Shown here: in pieces, positions 16,212 to 32,058 of the stretch
Layout: each line of letters opens with the position of its first letter
Position numbering within the stretch: the stretch's first letter is position 1
Assembly: GCA_017514235.1 (NCBI GenBank)
Contig: JAFWKK010000004.1
Location: 1 to 39,165 of the forward strand
Direction of reading: 5' to 3'
DNA length: 39,165 bases
Origin: Kiritimatiellia bacterium
Lineage (GTDB): Bacteria > Verrucomicrobiota > Kiritimatiellia > RFP12 > UBA1067
Notes under the pieces: model-generated
Database searches by the model: none
What the model was told of the DNA's origin: nothing
What the model saw: the letters and a program-made list of their open reading frames with translations, nothing else
Program-made: the position numbers and the translations under genes

Positions 16212-16862
16212 TCACGCCAACTCCCAGGTGAACGTGACAGAATCCGACGCCTCAAGATCCTCCGGGGTGATATCCGGTGCCGCGCCACCGGCAACACACT
16301 CCGCTTCGCAGCAATTGTCGAACTCGTGATAGATGTCGATCTCCTGCCAGGAATAATTGATGTTTATGATGTCGCCGAGCTTCTTGCCGACGCCACGGCA
16401 AAGCCCCTCGGCGATCTTGCGGGCGTTTTCGGATGCCTTTGCGAACAGCTCCTCCTTTACGGCCGACTTGTCCTTCACCGTGAATTGGACGCGAAACTCC
16501 GGATCGACACCGGACCTTGCGACGGCGGAAAGGATCGACACCATGCGTTTCCGCTCAAAGTCAAAGCCGAATTTGAGGCTCTGCCGGATCTTATACCCCT
16601 TGAAGACGTGATCCTTGCGGTTCCCGTACTTGTCTTTGGTCCATTCCCATTCCGTATCGACGCCGAAGTCCGTCGTGCGAAGGTCCTCGGGATCGACGTT
16701 GACGGACTTGAGAGCGGCCTTCAGCGCCTCGATCCGCTGCGCCGCCGCATCCATCCCGGCACCGTATTCGACATTTAGGGTTTCCAGGTTGATCAGGATG
16801 TTGACATAGTCCGGTTTCACCTTTACGTTAGCCGAGCCGCGAACTGTTATCACTTTCTGCAT
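16212..16862 (-). CDS. SIMPL-domain (DUF541) protein
   Basis: The 216-residue protein begins ITVRGSANVKVKPDYVNI, the hallmark of the SIMPL/DUF541 family, and keeps the family's internal DYKIRQSLKFGF-like strand and a C-terminal helix (LFAKASENARKIAEGLCRGVG). There is no signal peptide, unlike periplasmic members, so it is probably cytoplasmic. Function in the family is poorly known. AAGGAG lies about 7 bases before the ATG. It is the last gene of the long minus-strand series, 52 bases after the macro-domain relic. Confidence 0.8.
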   Translation of the reverse strand: MQKVITVRGSANVKVKPDYVNILINLETLNVEYGAGMDAAAQRIEALKAALKSVNVDPEDLRTTDFGVDTEWEWTKDKYGNRKDHVFKGYKIRQSLKFGFDFERKRMVSILSAVARSGVDPEFRVQFTVKDKSAVKEELFAKASENARKIAEGLCRGVGKKLGDIININYSWQEIDIYHEFDNCCEAECVAGGAAPDITPEDLEASDSVTFTWELA

Positions 16863-16914
16863 GGTATTCTCCTTCCGTTAGAATTCGTCTTTCTTGTAAT
16901 GCCTCATGACGCCC

Positions 16915-17079
16915 CTATGGGCATTGACAATCGTCCTTCCCCATCTTCGGGACGTCCTTGATCGCCACGCGATGGATTGCGTCATCGACTCCGCCGCCGC
17001 CCAGCATCACCTGATTGGCAGCGTTGACAATTGCATCAACATCAAGCTTCGTAATGTCGCCCTGTACAATCTGCATCAT
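16915..17079 (-). pseudogene. Macro-domain protein, N-terminal fragment (54 residues)
   Basis: The ORF reads [20 protein letters not shown] then [16 protein letters not shown], the ADP-ribose-binding start of a macro domain (O-acetyl-ADP-ribose deacetylase type). It then runs into [17 protein letters not shown] and a TAG; the remaining two thirds of the fold are absent. GGAGG lies 8 bases before the first of two ATGs. The phosphate-binding loop GGGGVD is intact, but such a fragment should not fold as a macro domain. A nine-codon ORF (MRHYKKDEF) follows before the SIMPL gene. Confidence 0.7.
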
Positions 17080-17105
17080 GGTTTGTCCTCCAGTAGTTTC
17101 CTTGT

Positions 17106-17795
17106 TCAGATCTCCGCCCACGTCGGTTCGTAGGCGATTTCGTAGCGTTCGTCAAGGCGGGAGACATTGTAGATGCGGCTTCTCTCGAAATCGACTCCGC
17201 CGTGCTGCCCCGTGTGGATATGTCCGCAGAACACAAGACGCGGACGCTTCTCGATAATTGCCTCGGTCAGCTCCGGCGATCCGAAATGCTCCGAGTCTGT
17301 CTGGAGCGAACGGTCGATGTCGCTTCCCGGAATGCGCGGCGGCGAGTGCGTCACAAGCACATCAAGACCAGCGGGAATCTTCGAGAACCAGCTCTTCAGC
17401 GTGTCCGGCTCGCCCTCGAAAGCCCATGAGTAGGAGATGATCGGAACCCAAGGCGTCCCATAGAACTTTACGCCGTCAATTTCCGTCCCTCTGTCGCCAA
17501 GGAAATGGACGTTCGGCGAGAACTCGTACTTCCAGTCGATTCCCTGCTCCTTGAAGAGTATGTGTGCAATCGGGTAGAAGTCATGGTTGCCGGGGATGAC
17601 GACAAACTGGATGTCGGGATACGATGCCGTCCATTCCTTGAACTTCCTGTTGATCCACTTCTTCTGGTCGTTGATGTACCACGGCCCGCGTCCACGCAGC
17701 GGCGCGACGTCGCCCGCCAGCACAACGACATCCGCGCCCCTGGGGTCAAGTCCCTCAAGGTTACCATGCAAATCTGATGTCGCCATTATCCGCAT
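17106..17795 (-). CDS. Calcineurin-like metallophosphoesterase
   Basis: The 229-residue enzyme has the complete metallophosphoesterase set: SDLHGN (DxH) near residue 6, LAGDV near 27, PGNHD near 66, VTHSPP near 145 and CGHIHTGQ near 190, all metal ligands. It matches the cytosolic class of short phosphodiesterases or phosphatases; the closest informal description is the vertebrate UPF0046/MPPED-like group. It is the only full-length enzyme in a chain of truncated genes. The ATG at 17795 is used, with AAAGG 9 bases upstream; a TTG at 17804 is an alternative. It overlaps the preceding 32-codon ORF by 10 bases. Confidence 0.87.
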
Positions 17796-17884
17796 TGCTT
17801 CCAACCTTTCACAATGTCTCTAAAGAGCTGTTCTAACTTGGCATAGGCTCCAGCTTCCGCTATCATCGCCTTGCTGTCTTTCAT
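17786..17884 (-). CDS. Very short coupled ORF (32 residues), unknown
   Basis: The ORF reads MKDSKAMIAEAGAYAKLEQL and ends in [12 protein letters not shown]. Its ATG overlaps the nucleotidyltransferase stop in ATGA and its end overlaps the metallophosphoesterase start, so it is placed exactly like a translated cistron. No family is recognised. It may be a relic of a longer gene, a leader needed for coupling, or the shortened second subunit of the nucleotidyltransferase. Confidence 0.4.
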   Translation of the reverse strand: MKDSKAMIAEAGAYAKLEQLFRDIVKGWKQCG

Positions 17885-18246
17885 GCCACACCCGCCTCCT
17901 TCATGACCGCAGCGATCAAAGCATCCACAGCCGACCTATCGCAATCCGGCGGCAGACGACTCTTGCCAGCCTCGATGGTTGACTTCTTCTCATCCGCAAA
18001 GGCCATGATCTCGTCGAACTTCCACTCGCCGCGCCGGATCGAGAGCAGCGTCTCAAGCCGCTCGTCTGAGACCTGCTTCGGCGGCTGGGCAAGCCGCGCA
18101 TACTCGGCGGATGGCACGACGAAGACCCCGCGAACGTCCGTATCGCTGTTCGCGTTCTGCGTTCCGTATGCCCGGCTCCCGACGATGCCCCTGAACAGCA
18201 CAATCGGATTGTCCGCAACTTCAAGACTGTCTATAGAGTATGCCAT
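17881..18246 (-). pseudogene. Nucleotidyltransferase (Pol beta superfamily) with the middle missing
   Basis: The 121-residue ORF keeps the active-site start GIVGSRAYGTQNANSDTDVR (GS motif and first D-x-D pair) and PPKQVSDE. It then passes directly to RLETLLSIRRGEWKFDEIM and the family's C-terminal helices. Full-length relatives have well over 100 residues between these blocks, where the third catalytic carboxylate and the substrate site lie. The frame is intact across the junction, so either a small protein is still made or the deletion happened in frame by chance. It follows the 48-residue ORF by 7 bases and is coupled to the next ORF by ATGA. Confidence 0.65.
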
Positions 18247-18253
18247 CGTTGTC

Positions 18254-18400
18254 TCATGTCGTTGCAAGGCACGAAAGGATCAAGCGGCGGTAGACGTTTT
18301 CCCGCGAGGCTACGGCCGAGTCAACCTTTAGTGCTGCCAGCGCCGCAGCCGTCATGTAGACCGTTTTTGACCAGCCTGTCAGAATCAACGTCTTGTTCAT
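18254..18400 (-). CDS. Short coupled ORF (48 residues), unknown
   Basis: The ORF starts MNKTLILTGWSKTVYMTAAA and ends ENVYRRLILSCLATT. GAAGGAG stands 7 bases before its ATG, inside the end of the preceding Nudix fragment, and the ATG overlaps that stop (ATGA). No family is recognised. Its position and the behaviour of its neighbours suggest the remaining ends of a longer gene. Confidence 0.4.
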   Translation of the reverse strand: MNKTLILTGWSKTVYMTAAALAALKVDSAVASRENVYRRLILSCLATT

Positions 18401-18534
18401 GATTTTTCTCCTTCGCACTTCGCCTTGCGTCCGTCGAGCAGTTCGATATCCAGCAGATCACCGCTGATGATCTTGCCCGTGCACTTGCGCTCAGTCGCAA
18501 GCGTCTTTTCTGTCTGATCTTGCATTTGCTTCAT
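18397..18534 (-). pseudogene. Nudix hydrolase (ADP-ribose pyrophosphatase-like), N-terminal fragment
   Basis: The 45-residue ORF reads EKTLATERKCTGKIISGDLL then DIELLDGRKAKCEGEKS. This matches the N-terminal beta-hairpin region of ADP-ribose pyrophosphatases ('ekTl.se..y.Gki......velpdGr.a.re'). The Nudix box itself is absent. AGGAG precedes the ATG by about 11 bases and the stop overlaps the next ATG. Confidence 0.55.
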
Positions 18535-18547
18535 GTGATATAAACTC

Positions 18548-18685
18548 CTAAATTCCTACTGCCTCCTTGGTATTTGGGTTCATTGTCAAATCACGATTGC
18601 ATCCCGCGAATTGACATCTTCCAGCCGCCCTGCCCCAAAGCAAGCACCTCACATGAGGCGGAGTCCCTTTTCTGCTGTTGCTCAT
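18548..18685 (-). pseudogene. HNH protein of SAVED type, N-terminal fragment
   Basis: The 45-residue ORF contains LLWGRAAGRCQFAGCNRDL and NPNTKEAVGI. The pattern 'LWgrAagrCqf.gCN..L' with its CxxxxC zinc knuckle is the usual start of HNH endonucleases fused to SAVED domains in cyclic-nucleotide defence systems. The histidine-bearing part of the HNH site and any SAVED domain are missing. Its ATG overlaps the metallopeptidase stop (ATGA), and its stop lies within the ribosome binding site of the Nudix fragment. Confidence 0.6.
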
Positions 18686-19413
18686 GTTGCCTCTCCATCT
18701 TTTGCTTTCTCGCCGCTCACGTAATCAAGTGGTGAATCATTGAGGCGCTTGCGAACTTCGCGCCAGTCGGGCATGAAGCGATCCATAAGCGCGATAAACT
18801 CTTTGCCGTGTGTGCGGGTCTTGAGGTGGCAAAGCTCGTGCAGGATTATGTAGTTGAGCGCTTCCTTCGGCTTTCGGACAAGCTGGAGATTGAAGATAAT
18901 GCTCTCCTTTTTGGGGTTGCATTTGCCCCAGCTTCGCCTCATATTCATGATGGAGAATCGTTGGACATTCAGTCCAGTCCTCTTCTCCCAGAGCGGCAAG
19001 GCGCGGTTTACCGCATCTGAAAGGAGCGAGCGCTCCCACTCCGTCATGTAATCGCGACGTGACTTCTCGGTCGATTCCAGCGGCGCAAGCATGGTCAGCG
19101 TATTGCCGGAAATCTTAATTCCACCCCAGCCGTCCTGTTTGACGAGTTCAAGAAAATACTGTTCGCCCCAGAGGTAGTGGGTTTCGCCGGAGATGTACTT
19201 GCGCGGCGGCTGGCGTCGCTGCGCAAGCATTCCGTTGCGTTGCCGCAGAACCCAGCCGAAGTTCTCCCGCACGAAAAACAGCACCTCCTCGTCAGACGCC
19301 TCTTTGGGTGCGCTGACGAGAACACTGCCGTCAGGCGGTTCTACATACAGATGCATGTGCTTGATTGCCTTTCGGCGAACCGCAACAGGCACGTCTCCGA
19401 CTTTCAGTTCCAC
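18682..19413 (-). CDS. YgjP-like zinc metallopeptidase (M48/DUF45)
   Basis: The 243-residue protein has the zinc-binding helix HELCHLKTRTHGKEF near residue 190 and the family run AIKHMHLYVEPPDGSVLVSAP near the start. It is the standard companion protein encoded beside type I restriction genes. The GTG at 19413 is chosen: it lies 4 bases after the hsdR stop with GGAGG 8-10 bases upstream, whereas the longer frame would run inside hsdR. A regulatory or processing role on the restriction complex is suspected for the family but not proven. Confidence 0.85.
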   Translation of the reverse strand: MELKVGDVPVAVRRKAIKHMHLYVEPPDGSVLVSAPKEASDEEVLFFVRENFGWVLRQRNGMLAQRRQPPRKYISGETHYLWGEQYFLELVKQDGWGGIKISGNTLTMLAPLESTEKSRRDYMTEWERSLLSDAVNRALPLWEKRTGLNVQRFSIMNMRRSWGKCNPKKESIIFNLQLVRKPKEALNYIILHELCHLKTRTHGKEFIALMDRFMPDWREVRKRLNDSPLDYVSGEKAKDGEAT

Positions 19414-19417
19414 TTCC

Positions 19418-22400
19418 CTACGCCTCCTGTGCTTCAAGTATCTTATACACGGCTTCAACCTTGTCGTCATCCTTGAGAACGGCAAAAAGAGCGCTCTTGA
19501 TCTGGTTCTGCTTGGCGATGTTGTACTTGAAGCCTTGCAGCTTGGAGCCAAGAAACGCCTTGTGCAGGGCAAGTGTCAGCTTCTCGTCCTCGCCGAAGTT
19601 GTCGTAGAGCGCCTCCTTGACGGGCGATCCGGCAATGGATGCAGGATAGCGCCCCGATACGGATGGATTCTTGATCTCCTCGGCAAGTTTCTTGTATTCT
19701 TCAAGGAGCTTCTTGTATTCGATTACGCCAGCCTTGCGGTCTTCAATGAGTTTCTTGAGGACTACAGACATGCGCTCAAAGAACGCAGGGTTCATGAGCC
19801 TCTTGTGGACGAGTTCTTTCGCCGCGTTGTTCTCTATCGTCTCGGCGACATTGTCCTGCTCCTCCTTCGACATGGGCTCGGACTCGTTGCCTTTTGATTT
19901 ATCGTCAATGAAGTCCAAGAGGGAGAAGTTCTCGAGTGTGGTCAAGCGTTCGCTCTCGCCGGCGGCAATGTATGTGTCGATGAGATAGCGCATATCTGGC
20001 TCGTAGGGTTTGAGGTCGAGGAAGTCGCCGCTCGCCTGGCCGATGTCGTTGCGAAGCTCGAGATAGAACTTCACGCGGGCAGCGTAGAAATCCCTGTCGG
20101 CTTGCGGCACCTTGGCGCTCTCCATGCGAGGAGAGAACACGGCATACGCACGTACAAGTGCGCCGACGAGCCGGTAGAGCTTCTCGCGCCGCTGTCCGTA
20201 TTGCGTCTCCTCCTCGGGCGTGTCCGCGCCCTGGCAGCCGAAATACGCGCGGTACTGCGGCCCCTGTGCGGGAGACTCGACACCCTCGCAGAGTGCGTCA
20301 AGTGCGGCGAGGATTGTTTTGAAGCGCTCGCTTGATTCCTTGACGACATTCTTGACGAAGCCATCCACATCCTCCGCATCGTACCCGGCGAACGCCTTGT
20401 CGCTTGAGTACATCGCAAGGGAATCCTGTAAATCTCCAAAGAGCTTGCGGTAATCCACTATATAGCCGAAGTCCTTGGTCTCGTCGTCAAGTCTATTTAC
20501 GCGGCAGATCGCCTGGAAGAGCCCATGATCCTGCATGTGCTTATCAAGGTAAAGATATGTGCAAGGCGGCGCGTCGAATCCAGTCAGAAGCTTGTCCACG
20601 ACGATGAGAAGCTTCATGTTGGCCGGCTCATCCACGAACTGACGCTTCGCCTCCTTCTCGAAGTCCTCGACCTTCTTGGCTATTGACTTTACATCTTCGC
20701 CCGGCTTGACGCCAATCATCTTGCAGTAGGTGTCGTACTTGACCTCCTCATCCGTCCGATGTTCTGGATCGACCACCGAGGTAGAGATGTCGCTTGGCGC
20801 AGGAACATACGAAGAAATGACTGCACACCCCTTGAACTCGTGCTCGTGGAATAGGTTGTAGAACTTGCAGGCGGTGAGGATATCATCCGCGACAAGCATA
20901 GCGTTGCCAGCGCCGTTCATGAGACGCGGCTTCGTGGCGAAGTCGAGTATGATATCCTCGACAATCTTGCCGAGACGCGACTTGGAGGATACGACATTCT
21001 GCATCGTAGCCCATTTCTCCTTCAGACGCGCCTTTGCCCTGTCGGTGAGACCTGCGGTCTTTGCCTCGAACCAAGCATCGATTTCCTTCTTAGCAGTAAC
21101 ATCCTGCGGGATGTCGCGCGCTTCATAGCGAAGATCGAGGACCACTCCGTCACGCACGGCCTCCGGGAACTTGTAGGTGTGAATATAAGGGCCGAACACC
21201 TCCATCGACGTCTTCTTGTCCTTCTTCAAAAGCGGCGTGCCCGTATAGCCGACAAGAATGGCATCCGGCATGATTGCCTTCATCGCCTGATGCAAAAGAC
21301 CGGACTGCGTGCGGTGGCATTCATCGACGAAGACGGTGAAATTGCCCTTGACCTTGAATCCGGCAGGAAGCGCTGCCTTTAGTTCCTCGATATACTTGGC
21401 TACAGCCTCTTCATCGAGCTTGTCTTCGGATTCGTCCGTTTTGCCAGAATGCTTGCCGAATTTGTGGATGAGCGAGCAGATGAGATTGCCGCCCGCCGTG
21501 TCGTTGATGGCGTCAATCAGATCTTTACCGCTCTTTGTGCGACGAATCTTCTCGTCAACACCGATGAATAGCTTTTCGATCTGTTCGTCGAGTTCTTCGC
21601 GGTCTGTGACGATAAGAACGCGTCCGTCGTGATCGCGCTCGATAACGTGCTTGGCGAGAAGCACCATCTCGATAGACTTGCCGGAACCCTGCGAATGCCA
21701 TACAATTCCGCCCTCATGCTTTGCGGTGCGAGCAAGGGTGCGTTTGATACCGTAATACTGACTATAGCGGGCGACCTTCTTCTTGCCACGGTCGAATATC
21801 GTGAAGTTGCGTATGAGCCCCAGCATGCGGCTCGGCGAGAACATCTCATACACCTGCGAGTCGAGCTTCTCCTCGAATTCCGCCGCTTCTGACTCAATTA
21901 GCACGTCAACAGGATCGCGTTCATCAGGATGCTGGCCGAATCCATCATGCCGCCATTCGAGATATTTTTTCGCCGGAGTGCCAATTGTGCCGTATCTCAA
22001 CCCCTCGCTGTTGTTGCCAGCCGTGAGAAGCTGCATCGTCGTAAAGAACGGCATGATGAACATCTCCTTCGTGTGGTTGGCGATATTCTGGGCGATTCCC
22101 TTGACGACCGACACGCTCGCGCGCTTGAGTTCGATAAGGCCGAGCGCGATGCCGTTCACGTAGATGACGAGATCGGGTCTCTTGTCATATAGCCCAGCGA
22201 CCGTCACTTCCTCTGCTATCTGGAAGTCATTGTTGGTGACTATATCCCAGTCGATAAGCATGACTGTCTTTATCGCGCCTTTCTCGTCCTGGACTTTGGC
22301 GCCGTATTTCAAGATAGAATAGACGGCCTTGTTCGCGGCATAAAGTCCGGATGAGAGATCCTTCGCCTCTGACTGGAGTTTCACAATCGCCGCGTCCGCA

Positions 22401-22603
22401 AGGCGTTTCGAATATAGCGGTTTGCCTTCTTTGTCTTTTCGATTGAGAAGATTCGCCCTGAGAAGTTCCGGGATGATGTTGGAGTTGTCTTCATCGGTCT
22501 TGTTGCCGAGGAACTCGTAACCGAGATCTTGCTCGAACATCTCAATGAGCCGGGCCTGCGTGGCAAGTTCCGGTGCGCCAATTGGGGTTGTAGTGTCTTT
22601 CAT
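19418..22603 (-). CDS. hsdR: Type I restriction enzyme, endonuclease/translocase subunit HsdR
   Basis: The 1061-residue protein has the PD-(D/E)XK nuclease near residues 135-160 (RPDLVIYVNG then LGLIELK), Walker A (HSQGSGKS near 305), a DECH box (VFVDECHR near 427), motif III GYTGTP, and motif VI region VDKLLTGFDAPP. It translocates and cleaves unmodified DNA in complex with HsdM and HsdS. ATG 22603 follows AAGGAG by 8 bases. All hallmark motifs are intact, so restriction activity is expected if the modification side works. Confidence 0.93.
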   Translation of the reverse strand: MKDTTTPIGAPELATQARLIEMFEQDLGYEFLGNKTDEDNSNIIPELLRANLLNRKDKEGKPLYSKRLADAAIVKLQSEAKDLSSGLYAANKAVYSILKYGAKVQDEKGAIKTVMLIDWDIVTNNDFQIAEEVTVAGLYDKRPDLVIYVNGIALGLIELKRASVSVVKGIAQNIANHTKEMFIMPFFTTMQLLTAGNNSEGLRYGTIGTPAKKYLEWRHDGFGQHPDERDPVDVLIESEAAEFEEKLDSQVYEMFSPSRMLGLIRNFTIFDRGKKKVARYSQYYGIKRTLARTAKHEGGIVWHSQGSGKSIEMVLLAKHVIERDHDGRVLIVTDREELDEQIEKLFIGVDEKIRRTKSGKDLIDAINDTAGGNLICSLIHKFGKHSGKTDESEDKLDEEAVAKYIEELKAALPAGFKVKGNFTVFVDECHRTQSGLLHQAMKAIMPDAILVGYTGTPLLKKDKKTSMEVFGPYIHTYKFPEAVRDGVVLDLRYEARDIPQDVTAKKEIDAWFEAKTAGLTDRAKARLKEKWATMQNVVSSKSRLGKIVEDIILDFATKPRLMNGAGNAMLVADDILTACKFYNLFHEHEFKGCAVISSYVPAPSDISTSVVDPEHRTDEEVKYDTYCKMIGVKPGEDVKSIAKKVEDFEKEAKRQFVDEPANMKLLIVVDKLLTGFDAPPCTYLYLDKHMQDHGLFQAICRVNRLDDETKDFGYIVDYRKLFGDLQDSLAMYSSDKAFAGYDAEDVDGFVKNVVKESSERFKTILAALDALCEGVESPAQGPQYRAYFGCQGADTPEEETQYGQRREKLYRLVGALVRAYAVFSPRMESAKVPQADRDFYAARVKFYLELRNDIGQASGDFLDLKPYEPDMRYLIDTYIAAGESERLTTLENFSLLDFIDDKSKGNESEPMSKEEQDNVAETIENNAAKELVHKRLMNPAFFERMSVVLKKLIEDRKAGVIEYKKLLEEYKKLAEEIKNPSVSGRYPASIAGSPVKEALYDNFGEDEKLTLALHKAFLGSKLQGFKYNIAKQNQIKSALFAVLKDDDKVEAVYKILEAQEA

Positions 22604-22670
22604 AGTTCTTCTCCTTGATTCTTCGCCGCACGCGGCGAAGCTATCATGTGACGTTTCTTTATTCTCAATA

Positions 22671-23864
22671 TCATGACCACGGCCTTTCCATCGGTTGGTA
22701 CTGGCCATATTCATAATAGCATGCAACGGTTAACAACATTTCAATCTCCCTTGCTGTCATTGTTTTTTGGTCTATGGACACCCACTTCCCGGCAAACTCT
22801 TTCATTAACATATCAATATCCAGCGTCGCCCAAGCCCGTTTATTGGTATCTCCCAGATATTCAAAAACCTTTCTAAGCGTATAATTCAACTTTCGTGATT
22901 CATCTATGCTCGTCCGGGTGAGATGCTCTACTATGCAAAAGAAGTCAGAGTAATTCAACGCTGTGAAAGCCTCGGCAAGTTGCGGAACGTATCTGGCAAT
23001 CTCTTGCCTATACATGCCCACTCGTTCTTGATTTTCTTCAATTGAACAAGGACTCTCCAGTAAATCTATGAGTTGTTGGACCTCGAAGCTGAGCCACTCG
23101 TCGCATCTTTTTTCAAATTCGTTTCGCATGAATTTCAATTGTTCTAAGGGCGACAACCGATCATCGACCTTGACACGTTTCCATGTCCGAGTGTTTTTCG
23201 TGATCTTTTTGTTGATTAGATCCACGACCAAACTCAAGGAATCGTATCGCGATTTCAGATATGCCTTCAATGCCGAAAATCGTACCCGCAACGCTTTCCA
23301 GTTTCTATCCTCATGCGAAGAATAAATCACCACCCCAACATAATCATCCGGCTCATATGAGTATTCCTCAAGTTCATGTTCGATGACATAAGGGCAGTAT
23401 TGAATCTCCCCTGGGAAAAGGATTCCTTGCGACTTGGTCACAGCGGAGGAATGCGCAAAAACCAATGAGCGAAAATACATGAAGAAAGCATCATCTGTTG
23501 GACATTCGTTTTCCGCAATATTCAACGGCGCATTCATGCAAACGTCTTTGAAGAACTGGCGGCTATCAGGATGTCCCTTGTCAAAGATCGTGGCACTCAA
23601 TCCGAATCCCTCACGCAAACACTCGACAGCATCCTTAATTAAACTCGCAAACATCATAAATGTCATCAACCCTGTCGGAGCATTATATCCTTTAGGCGTC
23701 TTCTGGTTGGAATTTATCCACGAGGTGGCGTGACGCAGCCGATCTAGTACAGCACACACTTGCGTGTGTTTAGCTTTCAACTCCTCGTCATATTTAAACA
23801 CATTCGTATTATTCAATGTTTCGTACATCAAGTCACAAACGACGTCATCTAATAATAGCTTCAT
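22671..23864 (-). CDS. Unknown AT-rich protein in the R-M operon, HEPN-like motif
   Basis: The 397-residue protein is helical and clearly more AT-rich than its neighbours. No family is recognised with certainty. At residues 130-138 MYFRSLVFAH contains R-x5-H in a helix, the form of the HEPN RNase active site, and similar 'fRsl.fAH' strings occur in HEPN proteins of defence islands. ATG 23864 follows AAGGAGG by 7 bases and overlaps the hsdS stop (ATGA). It lies between hsdS and hsdR, where anticodon nucleases or other back-up toxins are encoded in some type I systems (for example prrC). A back-up RNase role is thus an inference. Confidence 0.6.
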   Translation of the reverse strand: MKLLLDDVVCDLMYETLNNTNVFKYDEELKAKHTQVCAVLDRLRHATSWINSNQKTPKGYNAPTGLMTFMMFASLIKDAVECLREGFGLSATIFDKGHPDSRQFFKDVCMNAPLNIAENECPTDDAFFMYFRSLVFAHSSAVTKSQGILFPGEIQYCPYVIEHELEEYSYEPDDYVGVVIYSSHEDRNWKALRVRFSALKAYLKSRYDSLSLVVDLINKKITKNTRTWKRVKVDDRLSPLEQLKFMRNEFEKRCDEWLSFEVQQLIDLLESPCSIEENQERVGMYRQEIARYVPQLAEAFTALNYSDFFCIVEHLTRTSIDESRKLNYTLRKVFEYLGDTNKRAWATLDIDMLMKEFAGKWVSIDQKTMTAREIEMLLTVACYYEYGQYQPMERPWS

Positions 23865-25078
23865 GCGCAAGCCTCCTTCTTGGTCAATTCACCCTTCATC
23901 CTCACTTTGCCAGTGAGCAAGTCGCGCATCATGCCTTCCTTGATGCGCACATATTTCTCGCGCTTCTCCACAAGCGCGGCGATGGCGGCATCCTGCTCGC
24001 CGAGCAGGTCGGCAATTGCCTGCTGCTCGGCAAGCTGTGGTATTGGCACTTGAAATACGGCTATGACCCTCTTATCTCCACGCGGCATCTTGGTCCCGAC
24101 TGCCTTTGCCGACACAAACTCAAAAAATGTATCACGAGCAAGTACTCGATACAAAAATCGACTATCTATTAAATCTGCAACCACACGAAGCACAAGGACA
24201 TCTGTCGAACATCCAGCATCATAATCGGCAAACCACATTTTCTTAAGATATGGTCTAATGTTGGAAAGCAATATGTCGCCACTCTTAAACTCACGCACAC
24301 TTGCATATGGCACTATGCTTTTATTAGGAGTTACGCCAGCGAGGTTGGAAAGCATGTTGTCGGTACTCACATACTTTCTCGTGTCGATGTCTTTTGTAGC
24401 GATTGTATCAGTGATAAAGTCTACCAGTGTACCGAGATTCGCACATCGCCACTCCCCCTTGAATCCCGGCAGGCGTTTTTTGGCGGAGAGGAGGTCGTGC
24501 GCTACGCCTTTGGCAATGAGGCGCTTCTTCTCGATCTGCTCGTCAAGGCTTTCGATTAGTTTGTCGACCTCGCCCAGCGACTCCGCTATCCGCTGCTGTT
24601 CGGGGAGAGGAGGACAAACAATGATTTGTGCTTTAAGATTGGCGTTGTACAGTCGGCTAATGATTCCGCCATCTTCCGATTGCCATTTCATAAGCGCATA
24701 GCACAATGCAAGGTACTCGTTTGTGACGACAGCTTCGTCATTGTCAATCCAAACAATGTTTGAGTCTTGAAAATATGCATCTTCTCCATTGTACACTACA
24801 ACTCGGCCAATTGTTCCTGCGGCCGAAATCAAACAATCTCCCTTGCGTGGAAATGGATACTTCGACCTTAGCGACTCGAATAGTGATCTTGTAATATATG
24901 CATCTGGAGTCTTGCCGAAAGTTCCTATCTTGTAGAACGGAATATCCCCTTGGTCTGATGTCTGGTGCTTCAAGACTCGTTTGCACATGAGTGGTTCGCC
25001 AATCTCCCCCAGCCGCTTCACCTCCCAATCCTGCGGGATGGGGCCAAGGGACGAATCTTTGAACTTCGCCGATTTCAC
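23861..25078 (-). CDS. hsdS: Type I restriction enzyme, specificity subunit HsdS
   Basis: The 405-residue protein has two target recognition domains (PIPQDWEVKRLGEIG near 14 and WRCANLGTLVDFITD near 215), each followed by a conserved spacer helix (PPLPEQQRIAESLGEVDKL and PIPQLAEQQAIADLLGE). The TRDs are AT-rich, as expected for exchanged segments; the spacers are not. The two half-sites and thus the bipartite target cannot be predicted. Its GTG start at 25078 overlaps the preceding stop as GTGA, with GGAGG 8 bases upstream. Confidence 0.9.
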   Translation of the reverse strand: MKSAKFKDSSLGPIPQDWEVKRLGEIGEPLMCKRVLKHQTSDQGDIPFYKIGTFGKTPDAYITRSLFESLRSKYPFPRKGDCLISAAGTIGRVVVYNGEDAYFQDSNIVWIDNDEAVVTNEYLALCYALMKWQSEDGGIISRLYNANLKAQIIVCPPLPEQQRIAESLGEVDKLIESLDEQIEKKRLIAKGVAHDLLSAKKRLPGFKGEWRCANLGTLVDFITDTIATKDIDTRKYVSTDNMLSNLAGVTPNKSIVPYASVREFKSGDILLSNIRPYLKKMWFADYDAGCSTDVLVLRVVADLIDSRFLYRVLARDTFFEFVSAKAVGTKMPRGDKRVIAVFQVPIPQLAEQQAIADLLGEQDAAIAALVEKREKYVRIKEGMMRDLLTGKVRMKGELTKKEACA

Positions 25079-26535
25079 TTGACCACCTCCCAATGTCCGC
25101 CCTTGTCGGGACCGATGCGACGAAGAGAACCATCGGTCTGTAATTGCCTTATGTGCTTCTTAATGCCCGCAAGTGACATATCCAACTTGGTCGCCAACTC
25201 AGGCAACGTTATGGATGGGGTTACTTCGATAATCTTAAGTATTTTGTCTCTGGTTTTCAGGCTACTTTTCAGGTTGCTTTTCAGGTTACTTTTCAGGTTA
25301 CTTTTCATGCTACTATCCCGTGTGGACTGGTCGAGTTCCTGTTGGCGCCCTGCCTTGGCAACCTTGGCTTCAAATGCCGTAATCAGCCTGAATGAGAATT
25401 CTGCACTTCCGTTGCCATTTGCGGCGAGTTCCCTTTGTACATCAGCTATTCCGCGATTGTAGCAGTTCACATAGCCGAGCACCTTCATTGCCTCGGCGAC
25501 AATGGGATTGCGGTAATCGCTGATGTTGGGGAAGTTCTCCGGCCGTGCGCGCCCGTACAGACCACCGTGATTGACGACTTCAATGCGATCGGAATATTGG
25601 TAGAAATGAATCGGAGCATTGCCCTGATAGTCGCGGTGCATGATGGCGTTCATGACGAGCTCGCGTATGGCCGCCTTGGGGTAATCGACACGCATCTCTT
25701 CGCGCAGAGCCGTCACCAAGACAGGTCGTTTCCGTGCGATTGTCGTTTCGATGAACAGGTCGATCTGCGGAAGCATTTTCATGATCGGCCCTTTGAAAAG
25801 ATGCTCGTTGAGGATTTCCGTTCCTTTGTCCAATCCGCCGAAACTGACATATTGCACAGCCGCGCCAGGGAAGAAATGTCGAGGATCCCTGCCAAACAGC
25901 AGAACGGCGGCATTTGTCGGCAGGTTATAGACGCTGTTGAAGAGCCTCAGCGACTCCAGCTTGCGCTCAATAGGCCGGTCGTCGGACGCAAGAATCGCCG
26001 CATCTACGGCCTTGGGCAAGTAATCATGCTGAAACAGATCAAGGTCAATGTCGTCAAGAGTCGCGCCAAAGCACGGGCGGGCGTCAAATGTCGTGAAGTT
26101 CCGCGCCTTGCGCTCGGCAAGGATCGTCTCCTCGGCTGGCGAGGCGATGTCGCGCCTGGGGCCGATACGAATCCACGTGCGCCCTCTGTAGCGAACTGGC
26201 GGCTGGTCGGACGGCTGCACCTCGACCGCGATGACATCGCCTTCTGGAAACGAAAACGCCTCGACCGCCATTGCGGGAATAGGCAGGATGTTGCCGTCGG
26301 AACGGATGGCGGCGAACTTCTGTAAAAGTTCGTCTGTCGCCTTAAGGCCGCTCAATCTGCCATCGTTGTACACGCCAATCAGCAGGTAGCCTGGTTTGCC
26401 GGAGTCGGGCATGTCGTTTGCGAAAGCGCATACCGCCTCGCCGAACTTGTCCTTGTCGGTTGTGGAGACCGTCCGTTCGATACGGTACGTCTCGGTGGAA
26501 GAAAGGAGTTCCGTCAACTCTTGTTTGGTTATCAT
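25075..26535 (-). CDS. AlbA_2/ATPase regulator with winged helix, inside the R-M operon
   Basis: The 486-residue protein starts with an AlbA_2 (Schlafen-type, DNA-binding) domain, residues about 1-140 (YRIERTVSTTDKDKFGEAVC, YLLIGVYNDG). A GHKL-like ATPase region follows (AAIRELVMNAIMHRDYQG near 285, DRIEVVNHGGLYG near 315). The C terminus is a winged helix (about 430-480). Between them lies a linker made of KSNL repeats. Such proteins often accompany restriction systems as regulators. GGAGG precedes the ATG by 7 bases. It is placed between hsdM and hsdS and is translationally coupled to hsdS. Confidence 0.8.
   Translation of the reverse strand: MITKQELTELLSSTETYRIERTVSTTDKDKFGEAVCAFANDMPDSGKPGYLLIGVYNDGRLSGLKATDELLQKFAAIRSDGNILPIPAMAVEAFSFPEGDVIAVEVQPSDQPPVRYRGRTWIRIGPRRDIASPAEETILAERKARNFTTFDARPCFGATLDDIDLDLFQHDYLPKAVDAAILASDDRPIERKLESLRLFNSVYNLPTNAAVLLFGRDPRHFFPGAAVQYVSFGGLDKGTEILNEHLFKGPIMKMLPQIDLFIETTIARKRPVLVTALREEMRVDYPKAAIRELVMNAIMHRDYQGNAPIHFYQYSDRIEVVNHGGLYGRARPENFPNISDYRNPIVAEAMKVLGYVNCYNRGIADVQRELAANGNGSAEFSFRLITAFEAKVAKAGRQQELDQSTRDSSMKSNLKSNLKSNLKSSLKTRDKILKIIEVTPSITLPELATKLDMSLAGIKKHIRQLQTDGSLRRIGPDKGGHWEVVK
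25250..25308. repeat. 12-base tandem repeat coding for a KSNL linker
   Basis: About five units of a 12-base repeat (plus-strand unit gttacttttcag, with small changes) lie in the AlbA_2 regulator gene. Each unit codes for four residues (KSNL, KSSL), so unit gain or loss keeps frame and changes linker length between the ATPase and winged-helix parts. The first and last units are diverged. Confidence 0.8.
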
Positions 26536-26552
26536 AGTTTACCTCCCATACT

Positions 26553-28913
26553 TCAGTATCCCATCGCGGCAAGTCGTTTGGCAACGCTCTTTTCAAGTGC
26601 TGCGGTCTCCGGTGCGATTTCGCCCAACGGCTTGGCATAGCGTCTTGCAAGCTCATCAACGCGCTCCGTGAGCGCAACCGAAATCGAACGAAACAGTTCG
26701 TCTATTCCGTTATGAACTGTAGCAATCCATTTGTCGGCAACGACGAGTTCCTTGATTTCGTCGATTGAGAGCGTTGGATATTTCGCCTTTTCCAGGGTCT
26801 CAAGCTTCTTCTGTGCGGCCTTGAGAGCCTTGGATGCTGCTTTACGCTTTTCCTCCGCGCAAGCGCGGAGACGCACCAATTCTTCTTCACTTCCCTGTGA
26901 ATCTTCGTCCTGCGCCTCTCCGCTTGCGGCAAGGTCTTCCAGTTCTGCCTTTGCCGCTTCGAGCGCGGCCTCGGCCTTTGCAACAGCCTCTGACTCTGCC
27001 TTGAAAAACCTCGCGTCAATAAGTTTTCTGGGGATGAGAAGACCATCCCAGCCAGTCTCGACCTTCTTGATTTGCTTCGTCTTCTTGTTCTCGGTCTCTT
27101 TGTAGAATGTCTCGATTTCGCGCCCGGCTTCCCATCCGTTTGCAACGACGAGGTGCAAATCGTCGTTCATCGTGTCAGTCCAGTACTTTAGCAGCACTTC
27201 ATAGACATCATACGGATCAAAGAGCTTGAGGCTGGAGAAGCGCTCCATCAGCACACGCGCTGGATCGGCGATGAAGTGCTTGGCGTCCGTATAGGCATCA
27301 ATATCCGAGAACACGGGTGCCTCCTCGCGCGCCCAAGCCTTAAACGCCTTGGCGACCCTGTCAGAGTACATCGCGAAAGCGGCTTCCGCATGAATAGTCC
27401 CACGAACCTGCGGCGGCTCCACAACGAGCGCTTCGTAGCCCTTGCGAAGTGGCTTGAAAAGGGCCTGCCGCATTCCGGGCAACGCCGTCCAGTAAGCATC
27501 CAGCGCTTCGACATCTGCGGACGGTATGCCCCCCTTGAGATGCGCCTCGACATCCTGCACATCCTCGCGCACACCCGAATCGATGTAACGGGACATACTG
27601 AGATTGTAGCCGTTCTTATCCTTTATTTCGCTCCACTTCACGAATCGCGAGTAATGCGCCTCCTTACGGCGGTTACGGTAGGTGGAAACGATTTTCTCGA
27701 CATCGCGCTCGCGCAGACGATTCTTGTTGCCGTCCTTTATGAAGCCGCGGGAAGCATCGATCATAAAAACGCCCTCGCGCTCGTCGGCTCCTGATTTTGC
27801 CAACACCATAACGCAGGCGGCGATGCCGGTTCCGAAGAAGATATTGGGCGGGAATGCGATGACGCCTTCCACTATACCCTTGTCGATGAGCGTCTTGCGA
27901 ATCGTCTCCTCGGCGTTGCCGCGCGAAAGGACACCAAGCGGAAGAATGATTGCCGCACGGCCTTCTCGTTTCAGGGACTTCAGGACGTGCATCACCCATG
28001 CATAGTCGCCGTTCTTCTCTGGCGGCATCGCCCCATACCCTTCAGTCCGCCCGAAGTCCTTGTACCCGGACTTCCAGTTTTTGAGCGAGAACGGAGGATT
28101 GAGAACGGCGAAGTCGAACTTGTCGAGGACCTCCTCGCCATCCTCGATGTGCGTGAACTGCGGACTGGAGAACGTGTTGCCTACCTTTATCTCCGCAGTG
28201 GGGAGGTTGTGGAGCACCATGTTCATCTTGGCAAGGCCGGCAGTTGTCTGGTTCTCTTCCTGTCCATATATGGCGACCTGGCATGGCGCCTCGTTTGCCG
28301 AGCGGATGAGGAGCGATCCTGAACCGCAGGCTGCATCGTAGATCGACCATCCTTCCTCGCGCTCCGTTATCTCGCTTATCCCCAGAATGCCGGCTATGAC
28401 TCGCGATGCCTCTGCAGGCGTGTAGAACTGCCCCTTGGATTTGCCGCTATCGACGGCGAAATGGCGCATAAGATTTTCATAGACGTCGCCAAGGATGTCG
28501 TCTCCAGAGGCCTTGTTCCGGCTGAAGTCGAACTCGCTGCGGCAGAAGATGTTGATGAGCCTTGTAAGCTTGTCGACCATCTCGTCGCCCTTGCCGATCT
28601 TTGTCTCGTCGTTGAAGTGGACGTCCTTGAACATGCCCGCGAGCATCTGGTTGTTCTCCGCGAGGTTGGCGAGAGCAATGTCGATTTTCTCGCCGATGTC
28701 AGGCTTGTTCCTGAGTTGTTTGAAGTCCTCAAAGGAGCACCCCTCGGGAATCGTGACTGGCGCGTATTTCACCCCCGCGTAGCGGTCGGAGATGTATTTC
28801 ACAAACACAAGCGTCAGCACGTAGTCTTTGTACTGGCTGGGGTCCATACCACCGCGAAGCTCGTCGCAAAGGCTGTACAGCGAGTTGTCCAAATCGTTCT
28901 TTCTGATTGCCAC
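26553..28913 (-). CDS. hsdM: Type I restriction enzyme, methyltransferase subunit HsdM
   Basis: The 786-residue N6-adenine methyltransferase has the HsdM N-terminal helical domain (LYSLCDELRGGMDPSQYKDY), SAM motif I (DAACGSGSLL near 193) and catalytic motif IV (NPPF near 272). The C-terminal 250 residues, including a long Ala/Glu/Lys coiled coil (about 680-740), exceed the usual 500-residue HsdM and match the long variant class. The start is GTG 28913, since the frame upstream overlaps the preceding gene. With HsdS it should methylate the host's sites. Confidence 0.92.
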   Translation of the reverse strand: MAIRKNDLDNSLYSLCDELRGGMDPSQYKDYVLTLVFVKYISDRYAGVKYAPVTIPEGCSFEDFKQLRNKPDIGEKIDIALANLAENNQMLAGMFKDVHFNDETKIGKGDEMVDKLTRLINIFCRSEFDFSRNKASGDDILGDVYENLMRHFAVDSGKSKGQFYTPAEASRVIAGILGISEITEREEGWSIYDAACGSGSLLIRSANEAPCQVAIYGQEENQTTAGLAKMNMVLHNLPTAEIKVGNTFSSPQFTHIEDGEEVLDKFDFAVLNPPFSLKNWKSGYKDFGRTEGYGAMPPEKNGDYAWVMHVLKSLKREGRAAIILPLGVLSRGNAEETIRKTLIDKGIVEGVIAFPPNIFFGTGIAACVMVLAKSGADEREGVFMIDASRGFIKDGNKNRLRERDVEKIVSTYRNRRKEAHYSRFVKWSEIKDKNGYNLSMSRYIDSGVREDVQDVEAHLKGGIPSADVEALDAYWTALPGMRQALFKPLRKGYEALVVEPPQVRGTIHAEAAFAMYSDRVAKAFKAWAREEAPVFSDIDAYTDAKHFIADPARVLMERFSSLKLFDPYDVYEVLLKYWTDTMNDDLHLVVANGWEAGREIETFYKETENKKTKQIKKVETGWDGLLIPRKLIDARFFKAESEAVAKAEAALEAAKAELEDLAASGEAQDEDSQGSEEELVRLRACAEEKRKAASKALKAAQKKLETLEKAKYPTLSIDEIKELVVADKWIATVHNGIDELFRSISVALTERVDELARRYAKPLGEIAPETAALEKSVAKRLAAMGY

Positions 28914-28926
28914 GGTTTTATTCCCT

Positions 28927-29466
28927 TCATTTGTTGGGCTTGATTGCGCCCATAGATTCCAACTGGCCAATGGCCGATCTGAATGTTGTCTTTGTTATTC
29001 GCAATTCTCCTGTTCCGCCTGATTCCCGCAGCTCTGCGAGCGGCGGATAGCCACGCTCGGGGTGGCGCAACTCTTCGAGGATGCTTGACGTGTCACCCAT
29101 GTCGCCAGCCTTGTGCGGCACCGGCCCACACATTATGGCAGAGTAGCGCATACTGTAGCACAGCAACGCGCAATCGAATTGTTGCATTTCGTCGTAGTCC
29201 ACGAATTTGACGCGGTTCTTATCGTAGCCGCATTCGTAGGCTACAGCCTGTAGGTGATGCTTTTTGGCGTCGCAACGACCCAGGACAAGTATGTCGCCGT
29301 AGGCATTGTCGGCTTCACCGAGATCGATTTCCCCATCCTCGTCAATTAAACCTTGAAGTCCAAGCGAACATAGCAATTCGTGAAGCGTCCCGTTCTCGTT
29401 GGCGTCTTCGAGGCGGTCTTTCACGCGGTCGAATATCTCGACCATTCTATCAGGGCTGACAGCCAC
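28927..29466 (-). CDS. Unknown 179-residue protein between the M-S fusion and HsdM
   Basis: No family is recognised. The protein is acidic, with ELLCSLGLQGLIDEDGEIDL near 30, a DILVLGRCDAKKHHLQAV strand-helix near 58, and a C-terminal region (LRESGGTGELRITKTTFRSA) that could be a small winged-helix-like segment. 'DxLVLGR...l....' followed by alternating strands suggests an alpha/beta nucleotide- or DNA-binding fold, but this is weak. GTG 29466 has GGAGG 8 bases upstream, inside the end of the preceding gene. Its fixed place in the operon suggests a partner of the M-S fusion. Confidence 0.6.
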   Translation of the reverse strand: MAVSPDRMVEIFDRVKDRLEDANENGTLHELLCSLGLQGLIDEDGEIDLGEADNAYGDILVLGRCDAKKHHLQAVAYECGYDKNRVKFVDYDEMQQFDCALLCYSMRYSAIMCGPVPHKAGDMGDTSSILEELRHPERGYPPLAELRESGGTGELRITKTTFRSAIGQLESMGAIKPNK

Positions 29467-29468
29467 GT

Positions 29469-31256
29469 TCAGCCCTCCTGCCCTTTTTTGACGAGAACAT
29501 CCGCCGCCGCGTTCTCAAACACGGAAGCGAGAGATGCCTTCGCCGCTGCAAGTTGGTCTCGCAGCGAGACGATCTTGAGCGCGTTTTCGCGGCAGACACG
29601 GCCGATTTCCCGCTGACGCTCGATTGGAAGATTAGGCACGGGGAGTGATTCAAGATCACGATAACTGAGAATGCGAATCGCCGATCCAGACGAGTGCTTG
29701 TCGAGGTAACGCTGTGCATATTCGTTGTCAAGGCAGGCCTTAAGGTAATAGGGGTCGGCCTCATCCTCGTTGACGCTGACAATCAGCACATTTTCGCAAG
29801 GGACGAGTCGCTTGCCTTCGGGGATTTCCGCGACAGCAACCTTGAATCCTGCTCCACTAGCGTTCACACGGGATATGATAAGGTCGTTTTGTTTGACACA
29901 GGACGAAATCATTTGCTCTGGGATGTTGCCCAAATACATGAGGTCTCCCCCGATAACGCCCTCGGAAATGTCTTTGACGGAAAGGTAGAGCCAATCCGTT
30001 TCAGATTTTGTAGAGATGCGGTCTAGCTCGTCTCTGGTGAGCAGAACGCCTCGTCTCGCATCGGTCACAAAATTGCCGAATGGGATGCCATCCTTGATGG
30101 CGACCGGGTCGGCGAAGTACTGCTTGACAGCCAAAGAGCATTCGTTTTTGAGTAGGACATCCCTCGATACTGTTGCGCAATAGCGATCTAAGCCCTTGGT
30201 ATCCGCAGTGGCTTCCACTCCAAGACACGCGGCTATGATATCAATGTGCTGCTTCCCTAGAACCTTTTTGCGGCGACTGACGTAGCAGAGTTCATCTGCG
30301 CGAATCATCTTGACAACATCGTTGCCGTGGCTGAACACAACAAGGTATGTCGAAATGTTGGTGGACATCATGAGATTTGAAGGCAGCTCGATAACCGCTT
30401 CAATCAGACCGTGTTGGATGAAATACCGTCTGTATGCCTCGTTACGGTTGTCGAACATGGCAGACGGTGACAGAACAACCGCTGCGCGACCGTCCCTTTT
30501 TATCGCGGCAACAGCGCGAGCGGCAAAGAGCCAATCACCCTGCATTCCCGTGCGAAGTTCTGGAAAATCGGGAAATGTAGCATGGAAGAAACGACGGACA
30601 TTGGGCTCCTGTGGCATTCCGCGAACGGCGAGTGGTGCATCGCAAAGAACCTTATCGTATCCAATACCGTCAAAGGTTTCGGCAAAAGCATCCTCACCAT
30701 GAATCTTTATTTTTGCATCAAGACACCATGCGCAAATTTCGGCTATTGCAGCCATATCTTTTGCACGCTCGATGCCACAAAAATCATTCTCCTCGTTATC
30801 GGAGAACGCCTTGTAATAAGCGCGCCGAAGGAAATCTCCTGCAGCACAGCCAATGTCACATACTGAATCGCCTTTCTTAATCGCCAAAGTCTTAAGCAGA
30901 AGGTCGATAATCGGAATAGAGGACGAGAAACCATTTTTCCGTCCGCCCTCTATAAAGCCTCGATCAAGGTTCAGGAAGATAGAATCGGAGAGATCTGCCT
31001 GTGTATATGTGGTGAGGAGTGGCTGATAGCGATCCCAATGATCGGCAATACGATCCGTCACAAGAGCGAATACTGATTCGGAGACTTCGTTCTTCTTTAG
31101 GATGTCGATAAGGTCGGTAGTTTCGCGCGCATCTTGCGCCAGATACATTGCAAAGGCACCACAAATTGCAGAGAAGCATGGAGACGATGTGTAGTTCCTC
31201 TCCATGTCTGCCAACTTCCATGCAAGACGTTCAACTTCTGTATTACGGTTTTCCAC
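29469..31256 (-). CDS. HsdM-HsdS fusion with degenerate methyltransferase motifs
   Basis: The 595-residue protein has an N6-methyltransferase fold at about 90-330 and an HsdS-like target recognition domain with spacer helix at about 390-580 (VNASGAGFKVAVAEIPEGKR, LPIERQREIGRVCRENALK). Motif I is DIGCAAGDFL (134-143) in place of the usual D-P-x-x-G-S-G, and motif IV is DAPL (206-209) in place of N/D-P-P-Y/F. The double change suggests weak or absent methylation. The first gene of the operon, it starts at GTG 31256 with AGGAG 7 bases upstream. It may bind DNA or SAM as a sensor or alternative specificity unit; that is inference. Confidence 0.8.
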   Translation of the reverse strand: MENRNTEVERLAWKLADMERNYTSSPCFSAICGAFAMYLAQDARETTDLIDILKKNEVSESVFALVTDRIADHWDRYQPLLTTYTQADLSDSIFLNLDRGFIEGGRKNGFSSSIPIIDLLLKTLAIKKGDSVCDIGCAAGDFLRRAYYKAFSDNEENDFCGIERAKDMAAIAEICAWCLDAKIKIHGEDAFAETFDGIGYDKVLCDAPLAVRGMPQEPNVRRFFHATFPDFPELRTGMQGDWLFAARAVAAIKRDGRAAVVLSPSAMFDNRNEAYRRYFIQHGLIEAVIELPSNLMMSTNISTYLVVFSHGNDVVKMIRADELCYVSRRKKVLGKQHIDIIAACLGVEATADTKGLDRYCATVSRDVLLKNECSLAVKQYFADPVAIKDGIPFGNFVTDARRGVLLTRDELDRISTKSETDWLYLSVKDISEGVIGGDLMYLGNIPEQMISSCVKQNDLIISRVNASGAGFKVAVAEIPEGKRLVPCENVLIVSVNEDEADPYYLKACLDNEYAQRYLDKHSSGSAIRILSYRDLESLPVPNLPIERQREIGRVCRENALKIVSLRDQLAAAKASLASVFENAAADVLVKKGQEG

Positions 31257-31287: not shown

Positions 31288-31341
31288 ATTATACCATAAC
31301 ACATCTTACCACACAAGTAGGTAAATGCTTACCATGCGAAA
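31288..31341 (-). promoter_or_regulatory. Promoter and operator-like half-sites of the R-M operon
   Basis: On the minus strand TTGTGT (31311-31316), a 17-base spacer and a perfect TATAAT (31288-31293) lead into the first gene. Over and upstream of the -35 the plus strand shows TTACC, GGTAA, TTACC half-sites (31306-31334): GGTAA-N4-TTACC forms a palindrome and TTACC recurs as a direct copy. This resembles a controller-protein operator; the candidate regulators are the AlbA_2/winged-helix protein of the operon or the divergent UmuD-like protein. Confidence 0.55.
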
Positions 31342-31398: not shown

Positions 31399-32058
31399 TT
31401 GAGCGAAGAGTTAAACAAAACGCCAATTCCCAATACTGGTTTGTTGTATAATTTACGCCGCGAGTTCAAAGGCAAAAGTATCGGGATCGGTGGAAATGCA
31501 CCGAAGAAGCTCCGCTTCGGAGGGGGATGCACCCGCGCCGCAGGCGTCGGGTCGCCCGACGAGCGTAGCGAGGAGCCTTGCAAAGCAAGGTCGCAAGAGG
31601 ATGCGCCGCGAGTGAAACGAGCGCCCGTAGGGATCGCAAGGTGCTGCGCGGGGTTTCCGTCGCCGGCCGAGCAATATCTTGAGCCGCCACTTGACCTGAA
31701 TGAACTTCTGGTGAAGCGTCCGGCCGCCACGTACTTTGTGCGCGTCGAGGGCGATTCGATGGTCGGCGCGTGGATCAGCGAAATATCCCCCGAACGAAAT
31801 GAGCATTACGGAGCAATGTCGCTAGAGGGGTGCGACCTGCTGGTGGTCGACCGCTCCCTCCGCCCCGCCGATGGTGACGTGATCATCGCCAGCGTGGACG
31901 GCGATTTCACCGTGAAGACCTACCGCCGCGACAAGAGCGGCGTCCGCCTGGAACCGGCGAATTCCAACTACCCCGTCATCCGCCTCCGTGCCGGACAGGA
32001 GCTGGACTACTTCGGCAAGGTGACGGCCTGCATACACAGATTCGCGGGGAAGATTTGA
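31399..32058 (+). CDS. umuD: UmuD-like S24 peptidase (orphan), expanded N terminus
   Basis: The C-terminal 140 residues match UmuD: cleavage site CAGFPSPAEQYLE, catalytic serine in VEGDSMVG and catalytic lysine in DGDFTVKTY. UmuD self-cleaves with RecA and then partners a Y-family polymerase; no umuC follows, so it is an orphan here. About 17 extra residues (SEISPERNEHYGAMSLE) interrupt the region just after the catalytic serine, and the first 80 residues are unlike UmuD and include palindromic DNA. A TATAAT at 31447-31452 lies inside the open frame. The start is therefore uncertain: TTG 31399 gives 219 residues, GTG 31612 gives 148, close to normal UmuD size. It is divergent from the R-M operon. 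Confidence 0.7.
   Translation: MSEELNKTPIPNTGLLYNLRREFKGKSIGIGGNAPKKLRFGGGCTRAAGVGSPDERSEEPCKARSQEDAPRVKRAPVGIARCCAGFPSPAEQYLEPPLDLNELLVKRPAATYFVRVEGDSMVGAWISEISPERNEHYGAMSLEGCDLLVVDRSLRPADGDVIIASVDGDFTVKTYRRDKSGVRLEPANSNYPVIRLRAGQELDYFGKVTACIHRFAGKI
31501..31590. repeat. Palindromic block inside the umuD-like frame
   Basis: Three short perfect hairpins occur in 90 bases: CCGAAG/CTTCGG (31501-31520), GTCGGG/CCCGAC (31546-31560) and CCTTGC/GCAAGG (31576-31590). A further copy of TCGCAAG follows at about 31591 and 31634. The frame stays open through all of them. The block looks like an inserted palindromic element or a structured leader. Confidence 0.5.

Follow-up and report, generated by a model that had tools for sequence, protein, structure and literature searches.

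What does a methyltransferase-like protein that has lost its catalytic motif do at the head of a type I restriction-modification (R-M) locus? This question is raised by the window analysed here, one whole 39,165-base contig of a Kiritimatiellia bacterium, in which a run of eight minus-strand genes spans about 12.6 kb (31256 to 18682). They encode, in this order, MS, u179, HsdM, a protein with AlbA_2, HATPase_c_4 and helix-turn-helix (HTH) domains, HsdS, a HEPN-motif protein, HsdR and YgjP. MS (29469..31256, minus strand; 595 amino acids) joins an HsdM-like pseudo-methyltransferase to one HsdS target-recognition domain. Its sequence and surroundings suggest that it is probably a type I methyltransferase turned into an autoregulator of the R-M operon, most likely a repressor. 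Start codons in the window were assigned by us, and relatives are referred to by locus labels (L0xx).

The MS family and the site at its promoters

The composition of MS was investigated by domain searches, in which Pfam gave a match to N6_Mtase and the PADLOC models gave one specificity domain. Residues 1-382 superposed on HsdM, and the fold is HsdM-like. The glycine-rich loop for S-adenosylmethionine (SAM) is mostly preserved in the MS proteins. Motif IV of N6-adenine methyltransferases is [ND]PP[FYW]; this motif was intact in none of the 26 MS proteins, whereas all 14 HsdM proteins of the same loci retained it. The window MS carries DAPL at this position. The MS reading frames are open in the 26 loci (at L050 the search match crossed one stop, which lies outside the frame used), and in the same 10 loci the target domains were 32% conserved in MS versus 20% in HsdS. 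No HTH was detected in MS by Pfam at E 0.1. The best PADLOC match was the mad2 model (E 1.5e-18), over the methyltransferase domain, and the NCBIfam equivalog scores for membership in MADS (MAD2/MAD5) were below the cut-off, at 24.5 of 720 and 33.2 of 400 bits.

Of the 288 genomes of the window's phylum, 9 carry an MS-type fusion (E 1e-20), as do 8 of 241 of its class and 8 of 398 from the phylum of a Clostridia genome (E 1e-70; three candidates scored per genome), with the starting genomes counted each time. Further copies came from one Subdoligranulum plasmid and one viral contig, and MS stands beside u179 in Collinsella, Clostridia and Ignavibacteriales. None was obtained from 198 Bacteroidota genomes at E 1e-70, an empty answer that shows little, or from phage records at E 1e-15, and two narrower searches yielded no new member (1/13 and 1/5, each already known). 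The identity to the window MS was 22-33% in the wide searches and up to 45% (L059). Neighbours were read at 22 MS loci, L059-L062 having been retrieved with 1.5-kb flanks only. An HsdM-like gene lies 3' of MS in 15 of these 22, weakly matched in some (L031) or cut (L022). No such gene follows MS at L021, L029, L050, L053 and L088; L014 has an HsdM_N fragment and L052 an Eco57I-type methyltransferase. L051-L053 are doubtful members of the family. The MS fusion is the conserved novelty of the locus, and members of its family, found in several phyla, mostly precede type I R-M genes.

To find shared sites, the 200 bases 5' of the MS genes were searched. GGTTN6AACC occurred 13 times in 11 of 22 loci, and the other spacings from 2 to 12 yielded 0-1 each. 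This site also came first when 256 words at 13 spacings were ranked freely (12 of 25 loci); the next word, shifted forms of the site aside, reached 6. Five loci, including the window, have GGTAN6TACC instead. After the start of L027 was corrected and the viral contig was added, either site was present in 19 of 26 loci, with 27 sites in total, as compared with a mean of 0.148 and a maximum of 3 in 500 shuffles. Four of five later-found loci had a site (0.0265 in shuffles). The sites were nearly restricted to the MS promoters among the regions examined: none was detected in the 5' regions of 19 ordinary hsdM genes of the phylum (20 loci, with the window's own left out) or of 168 other open reading frames (ORFs) of at least 200 amino acids in the MS loci.

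Exactly one GGTTN6AACC or GGTAN6TACC is present in the 39,165 bases of the window. This proposed operator, GGTAAGCATTTACC (GGTA-N6-TACC; 31320..31333, minus strand), occupies the same position in a sibling genome (L044, contig JAGBFY010000305.1, a Kiritimatiellae metagenome-assembled genome from water deer rectum). It lies beside the predicted operon promoter, TTGTGT-17-TATAAT (31288..31316, minus strand), which was assigned by consensus match alone. The centre of the window site is at about -45 from the estimated transcription start; the centres are at -42 to -45 in nine loci, and elsewhere sites lie over the -10 or the start. At the viral-contig locus L088, three sites surround TTGACA-TATAAT.

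Two further copies are described here. A second, distant MS in the sibling genome (L046) is located directly before an HsdM gene and has its own GGTTN6AACC site. The lone MS on the viral contig (L088:287-2038), with its three operator sites, is adjoined by genes for a small terminase and two ParB/N6_N4 methylases and by a SAM-synthetase-like ORF.

Candidate reader of the site and proposed regulation

Sites are present at L014, L046, L021 and L088, where u179 was not found, and at L021, L029 and L088, where no HsdM was found; the only gene that these five loci were seen to share is MS. Because orphan MS copies keep the site, MS itself is likely to be the protein that reads it. In addition, when the 17 rows that carry a site are placed on the MS tree, the five with GGTA group on a single branch (91/95; 0/500 shuffles). 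By analogy, a dimer of half-HsdS proteins would be expected to target just such a site, symmetric and bipartite with a short gap of fixed length. The engineered EcoR124INT reads GAAN7TTC, and EcoR124I reads GAAN6RTCG (PMC2877798).

From these observations, we propose that the HsdM-like domain without the catalytic motif, together with the single HsdS-type target domain, would form a symmetric dimer, as half-HsdS enzymes may do. The dimer would read the bipartite palindrome with its six-base gap, as GGTAN6TACC in the window and as GGTTN6AACC in most relatives. Bound at a position just 5' of the -35 (in relatives, also across the -10 or the start), MS would regulate its own promoter, and most likely would repress the operon of HsdM, HsdS, HsdR and the interchangeable effectors (AlbA_2, HEPN and others), until the repression is relieved. 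Repression is favoured because the sites overlap the -10 and the start in relatives.

Several observations weigh against this proposal. The -44 position could also suit an activator, and the centres are scattered in other loci (L024, -66; L021, -53; L046, -18; L060, -10 and +13). The -35 of the window is weak, and the promoter at 31288..31316 was not listed by a general promoter scan. No site was found in 7 of the 26 loci (L020, L028, L031, L050, L052, L053 and L062), among them L062 despite 41% identity to the window MS. L020, which is inside the GGTA branch in the 21-locus tree, bears an AGTAN6TACT palindrome that was noticed only post hoc. The later-found loci are partly dependent, with L061 76% identical to L046 and L060 66% to L022; the other identities were 45% for L059 to the window and 42% for L088 to L014. 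The GGTA and GGTT classes represent a single change on the MS tree, and no residue of the target domain cleanly marks the switch. The general excess of palindromes was not specific to six-base gaps, and a search of 398 genomes for the site plus a -35 returned 5 matches, one of them an MS promoter, with a reversed control also returning 5. The palindrome of L020 is located about 75 bases 5' of MS, where it abuts TTGACA, and is perhaps a third operator class.

The loss of activity is itself not certain in every member, because L014 (DYPF), L027 (NYPW), L028 (NFPF) and L088 (NYPF) retain the N or D as well as the aromatic residue. MS might still be an active methyltransferase with a second, fixed specificity, and the expression level would then depend on methylation of the promoter sites, as it does in certain type II systems. 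The mostly kept SAM loop, the HsdM-like fold and the MS proteins that are one residue off NPPF are compatible with this explanation, and the adenines of GGTTN6AACC, which resembles a symmetric type I target, are by our count some 8 bases apart. It is nevertheless distinctly unlikely in view of the contrast between MS and HsdM at motif IV, where the MS residues are very different. Another possibility is that the site is read by a different regulator, such as the AlbA_2/HTH protein or a repressor of the host, and that MS has another task, for example as a decoy or an accessory specificity subunit within the R-M complex. The AlbA_2 protein has an HTH and MS has none by Pfam. Yet sites are present where BLAST found no relative of the window AlbA_2 (e.g., L047, L048 and L049) and at orphan MS genes, they are lacking at the ordinary hsdM genes, and their class tracks the MS phylogeny in 17 rows; such a reader therefore seems rather unlikely.

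The preliminary description had seen in this locus a defence arrangement with AlbA_2 as a DNA-sensing arm and the HEPN protein as a possible RNase back-up to restriction. A dedicated new system of this kind agrees with the HEPN-type Rx5H motif, the AlbA_2 domain and the tight operon, but is very improbable, as both genes are swapped or missing in relatives and 2 of the phylum's 288 genomes, the one of the window included, had the HEPN-motif gene. The sensing of DNA is better assigned to MS, read as a dead methyltransferase that would recognise its own promoter. Finally, the restriction genes are standard, as they would be in an ordinary type I R-M locus with passengers, where MS is a decaying duplicate. 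This is scarcely credible for a protein whose frames are open in 26 loci and which is conserved across phyla together with its promoter sites.

A more speculative extension of the regulator proposal, which we consider improbable, is that MS guards restriction. Phage or plasmid counter-measures directed against type I enzymes, such as DNA mimics (Ocr, ArdA) or SAM-degrading enzymes, would also dislodge MS from its operator and turn on the R-M operon together with the back-up effectors. The dead enzyme would then be a decoy-repressor, and anti-restriction would become the alarm signal. The sole basis of this idea is that MS keeps the overall type I build and the SAM loop.

The operon and its exchangeable cargo

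The intergenic distances in the eight-gene run range from -19 to 67 bp. MS and u179 are separated by 2 bp, u179 and HsdM by 13 bp, and HsdM and the AlbA_2 gene by 17 bp; the AlbA_2 gene overlaps HsdS by 19 bp, and HsdS overlaps the HEPN-motif gene by 4 bp (ATGA). The last two gaps are 67 bp, before HsdR, and 4 bp, between HsdR and YgjP. The 438 bp 3' of YgjP (18682) contain no called gene. Beyond them are an RlaP fragment, a metallophosphatase (Pfam), a macro-like remnant (by eye) and a gene named SIMPL in the preliminary description, with wider spacings of 85 and 243 bp. In two Bacillota genomes (L047 and L051), no recognisable gene of the run follows YgjP, which lies near the contig end. L047 keeps the order MS-u179-HsdM-HsdS-HsdR-YgjP, followed by one 88-amino acid ORF before the contig ends. 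Because L047 repeats the order ending at YgjP, and because of the gap and the wider spacing downstream, the locus is best read as an operon of about 12.6 kb that the nucleotide genes merely adjoin. The locus had been described as one 15-kb unit that included a decayed nucleotide-processing module. All named genes from 31256 to 16212 are indeed on the minus strand, and the tight spacing holds for the eight R-M genes, which overlap or are at most 67 bp apart. It does not extend 3' of YgjP, and neither the single unit nor the membership of the module was supported. On the other side, just 5' of MS, a divergent ORF (31399-32058) has a C-terminal half that is LexA/UmuD-type peptidase-like by eye.

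The type I core of the window is complete in its domains. HsdM (26553..28913; all genes here are on the minus strand) matched PF02384 (E 6e-93) and HsdM_N and retains NPPF, and is probably an active modification subunit, as judged from its sequence. HsdS (23861..25093) has two target-recognition domains, with two stretches matching PF01420, and HsdR (19418..22603) has HSDR_N, SWI2_SNF2 and T1R_D3-like domains. The final gene encodes a YgjP-like metallopeptidase (18682..19413; PF01863, E 2e-54), which is also 3' of HsdR in L047, L051 and the sibling. These domain searches agree with the earlier view of an enlarged type I locus, and its head, an M-S fusion often accompanied by the 179-residue partner, recurs elsewhere.

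The partner u179 (28927..29466) has a GPxPHK motif, and, as with the HEPN-motif protein, no match was obtained in Pfam, PADLOC, NCBIfam or PHROGs at E 0.1. In the 21-locus tree, 11 loci have it directly after MS, as does L062. Its scattered distribution on this tree (6 changes) is compatible with an old MS-u179 pair that was lost in places, but did not differ significantly from shuffled labels (129/500). A structure model of u179 had a predicted local distance difference test score (pLDDT) of 83, and no significant match to its fold was found in the PDB (best E 0.05). No match and no confirmed relative were found on plasmids and viral contigs. A u179 domain forms the C-terminal part of longer proteins at L030:646-1758 (370 amino acids) and L032:8739-9632 (297 amino acids); no MS was found beside either, and the two have no neighbour in common.

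The AlbA_2 protein (25075..26535; AlbA_2, HATPase_c_4 and winged HTH by Pfam) is variable cargo or an accessory regulator, and the gene for the HEPN-motif protein (22671..23864) occupies a variable slot. The HEPN RNase motif is Rx4-6H. The HEPN-like assignment made earlier is supported at the level of the motif: the protein contains R134-x5-H140, and R134, A139 and H140 are kept in all three aligned sequences (numbered from the ORF start at 23870, 399 amino acids; a start at 23864 gives 397). A PDB sequence search with the 399-residue form gave no relevant match, and no relative was found in viral contigs. A plasmid relative at 22% identity supports only the Rx5H motif; this distant protein (L035:5533-6621, WP_001459672.1, E. 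coli IncI conjugative plasmid) is adjoined by a PIN-domain gene.

To evaluate the variability of these genes, the sibling was compared with the window. The protein identities were 99% for MS, 97% for u179 and 94% for HsdM, and the HsdR-YgjP stretch was 96% identical in DNA. The AlbA_2 protein was down to 50%, the region of the second HsdS target domain did not align, and a DUF2806/Abi_alpha protein and other ORFs took the place of the HEPN-motif gene. L018, from the same genus, has a HEPN-motif gene at 68% identity together with RhuM, DUF2806 and YobI-ATPase genes, and other MS loci carry YhcG nuclease or SbcCD genes. The AlbA_2 gene, one HsdS target domain and the HEPN slot look like exchangeable cargo, because they are replaced in a near-identical sibling and variable in relatives. 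The G+C content is 0.45-0.49 at 22001-25000 (HsdS and the HEPN-motif gene), as compared with 0.56-0.66 in the first 16 kb, which fits a recent import of cargo. The sibling HsdR (L044:15312-18701) has an in-frame stop in spite of the approximately 96% DNA identity. A search for a conserved neighbourhood, as suggested in the preliminary description, showed that the core gene set recurs in other genomes and that the AlbA and HEPN members vary. One conserved eight-gene defence system was ruled out by this variation of the cargo among relatives.

Comparison with known systems and significance

RptR, described in 2025, is the product of a first gene tied to a type I R-M locus and its cargo; it has palindromes at its own promoter and is conserved together with its site. 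It differs in being a small homodimeric repressor with a 6-bp palindrome, TAGCTA, while MS has 595 residues and a proposed bipartite site (PMC12255303). The controller (C) proteins of R-M systems likewise exert autogenous control through sites at their own promoters, including at one reported type I locus in Mycoplasma gallisepticum, but they bind by HTH motifs (PMC12707154). At its length and with no HTH at E 0.1, MS is not a small HTH protein of either kind. In EcoRII, SsoII and Ecl18kI, a methyltransferase polypeptide represses R-M genes (PMC12707154, PMC3978073). These type II enzymes are active and carry a repressor domain as a fusion (PMC12707154), whereas MS is type I-like, has lost the motif and has no added HTH; it is not a repressor domain fused to an active methyltransferase. 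EcoR124INT indicates that half-HsdS enzymes can read symmetric bipartite sites, and it is described as a methyltransferase, not a regulator (PMC2877798). No description of a dead methyltransferase regulator derived from type I was found in the searched literature, with most subscription papers and preprints outside it, and four written forms of the GGTT/GGTA sites did not occur in the part of it that was covered.

One structure, 7eew in the PDB, is what we take to be a fused M-S enzyme, the Vibrio vulnificus YJ016 methyltransferase bound to Ocr. It aligns to MS over 516 residues, but is described as a methyltransferase and not as a regulator, and the root-mean-square deviation of 24.8 indicates another arrangement of the domains. 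Esub1 (PDB 8vsq/8vsr, in complex with Prx) differs as a free-standing domain of about 200 residues, for which a literature search gave no function.

If the proposal is true, bacteria would have a new way to control an anti-virus system, as a variant among the R-M controllers. MS would represent a predicted family of regulators for type I R-M loci, for which a candidate operator sequence is supplied here, and a case in which a part of a restriction enzyme became a transcription factor and retained its bipartite recognition logic. The proposal would open to test the means by which type I systems, with the effectors that they carry as cargo, stay off until needed, and whether defence can sense anti-restriction proteins. 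An MS gene with GGTWN6WACC at its promoter may also serve as a marker for new defence cargo.

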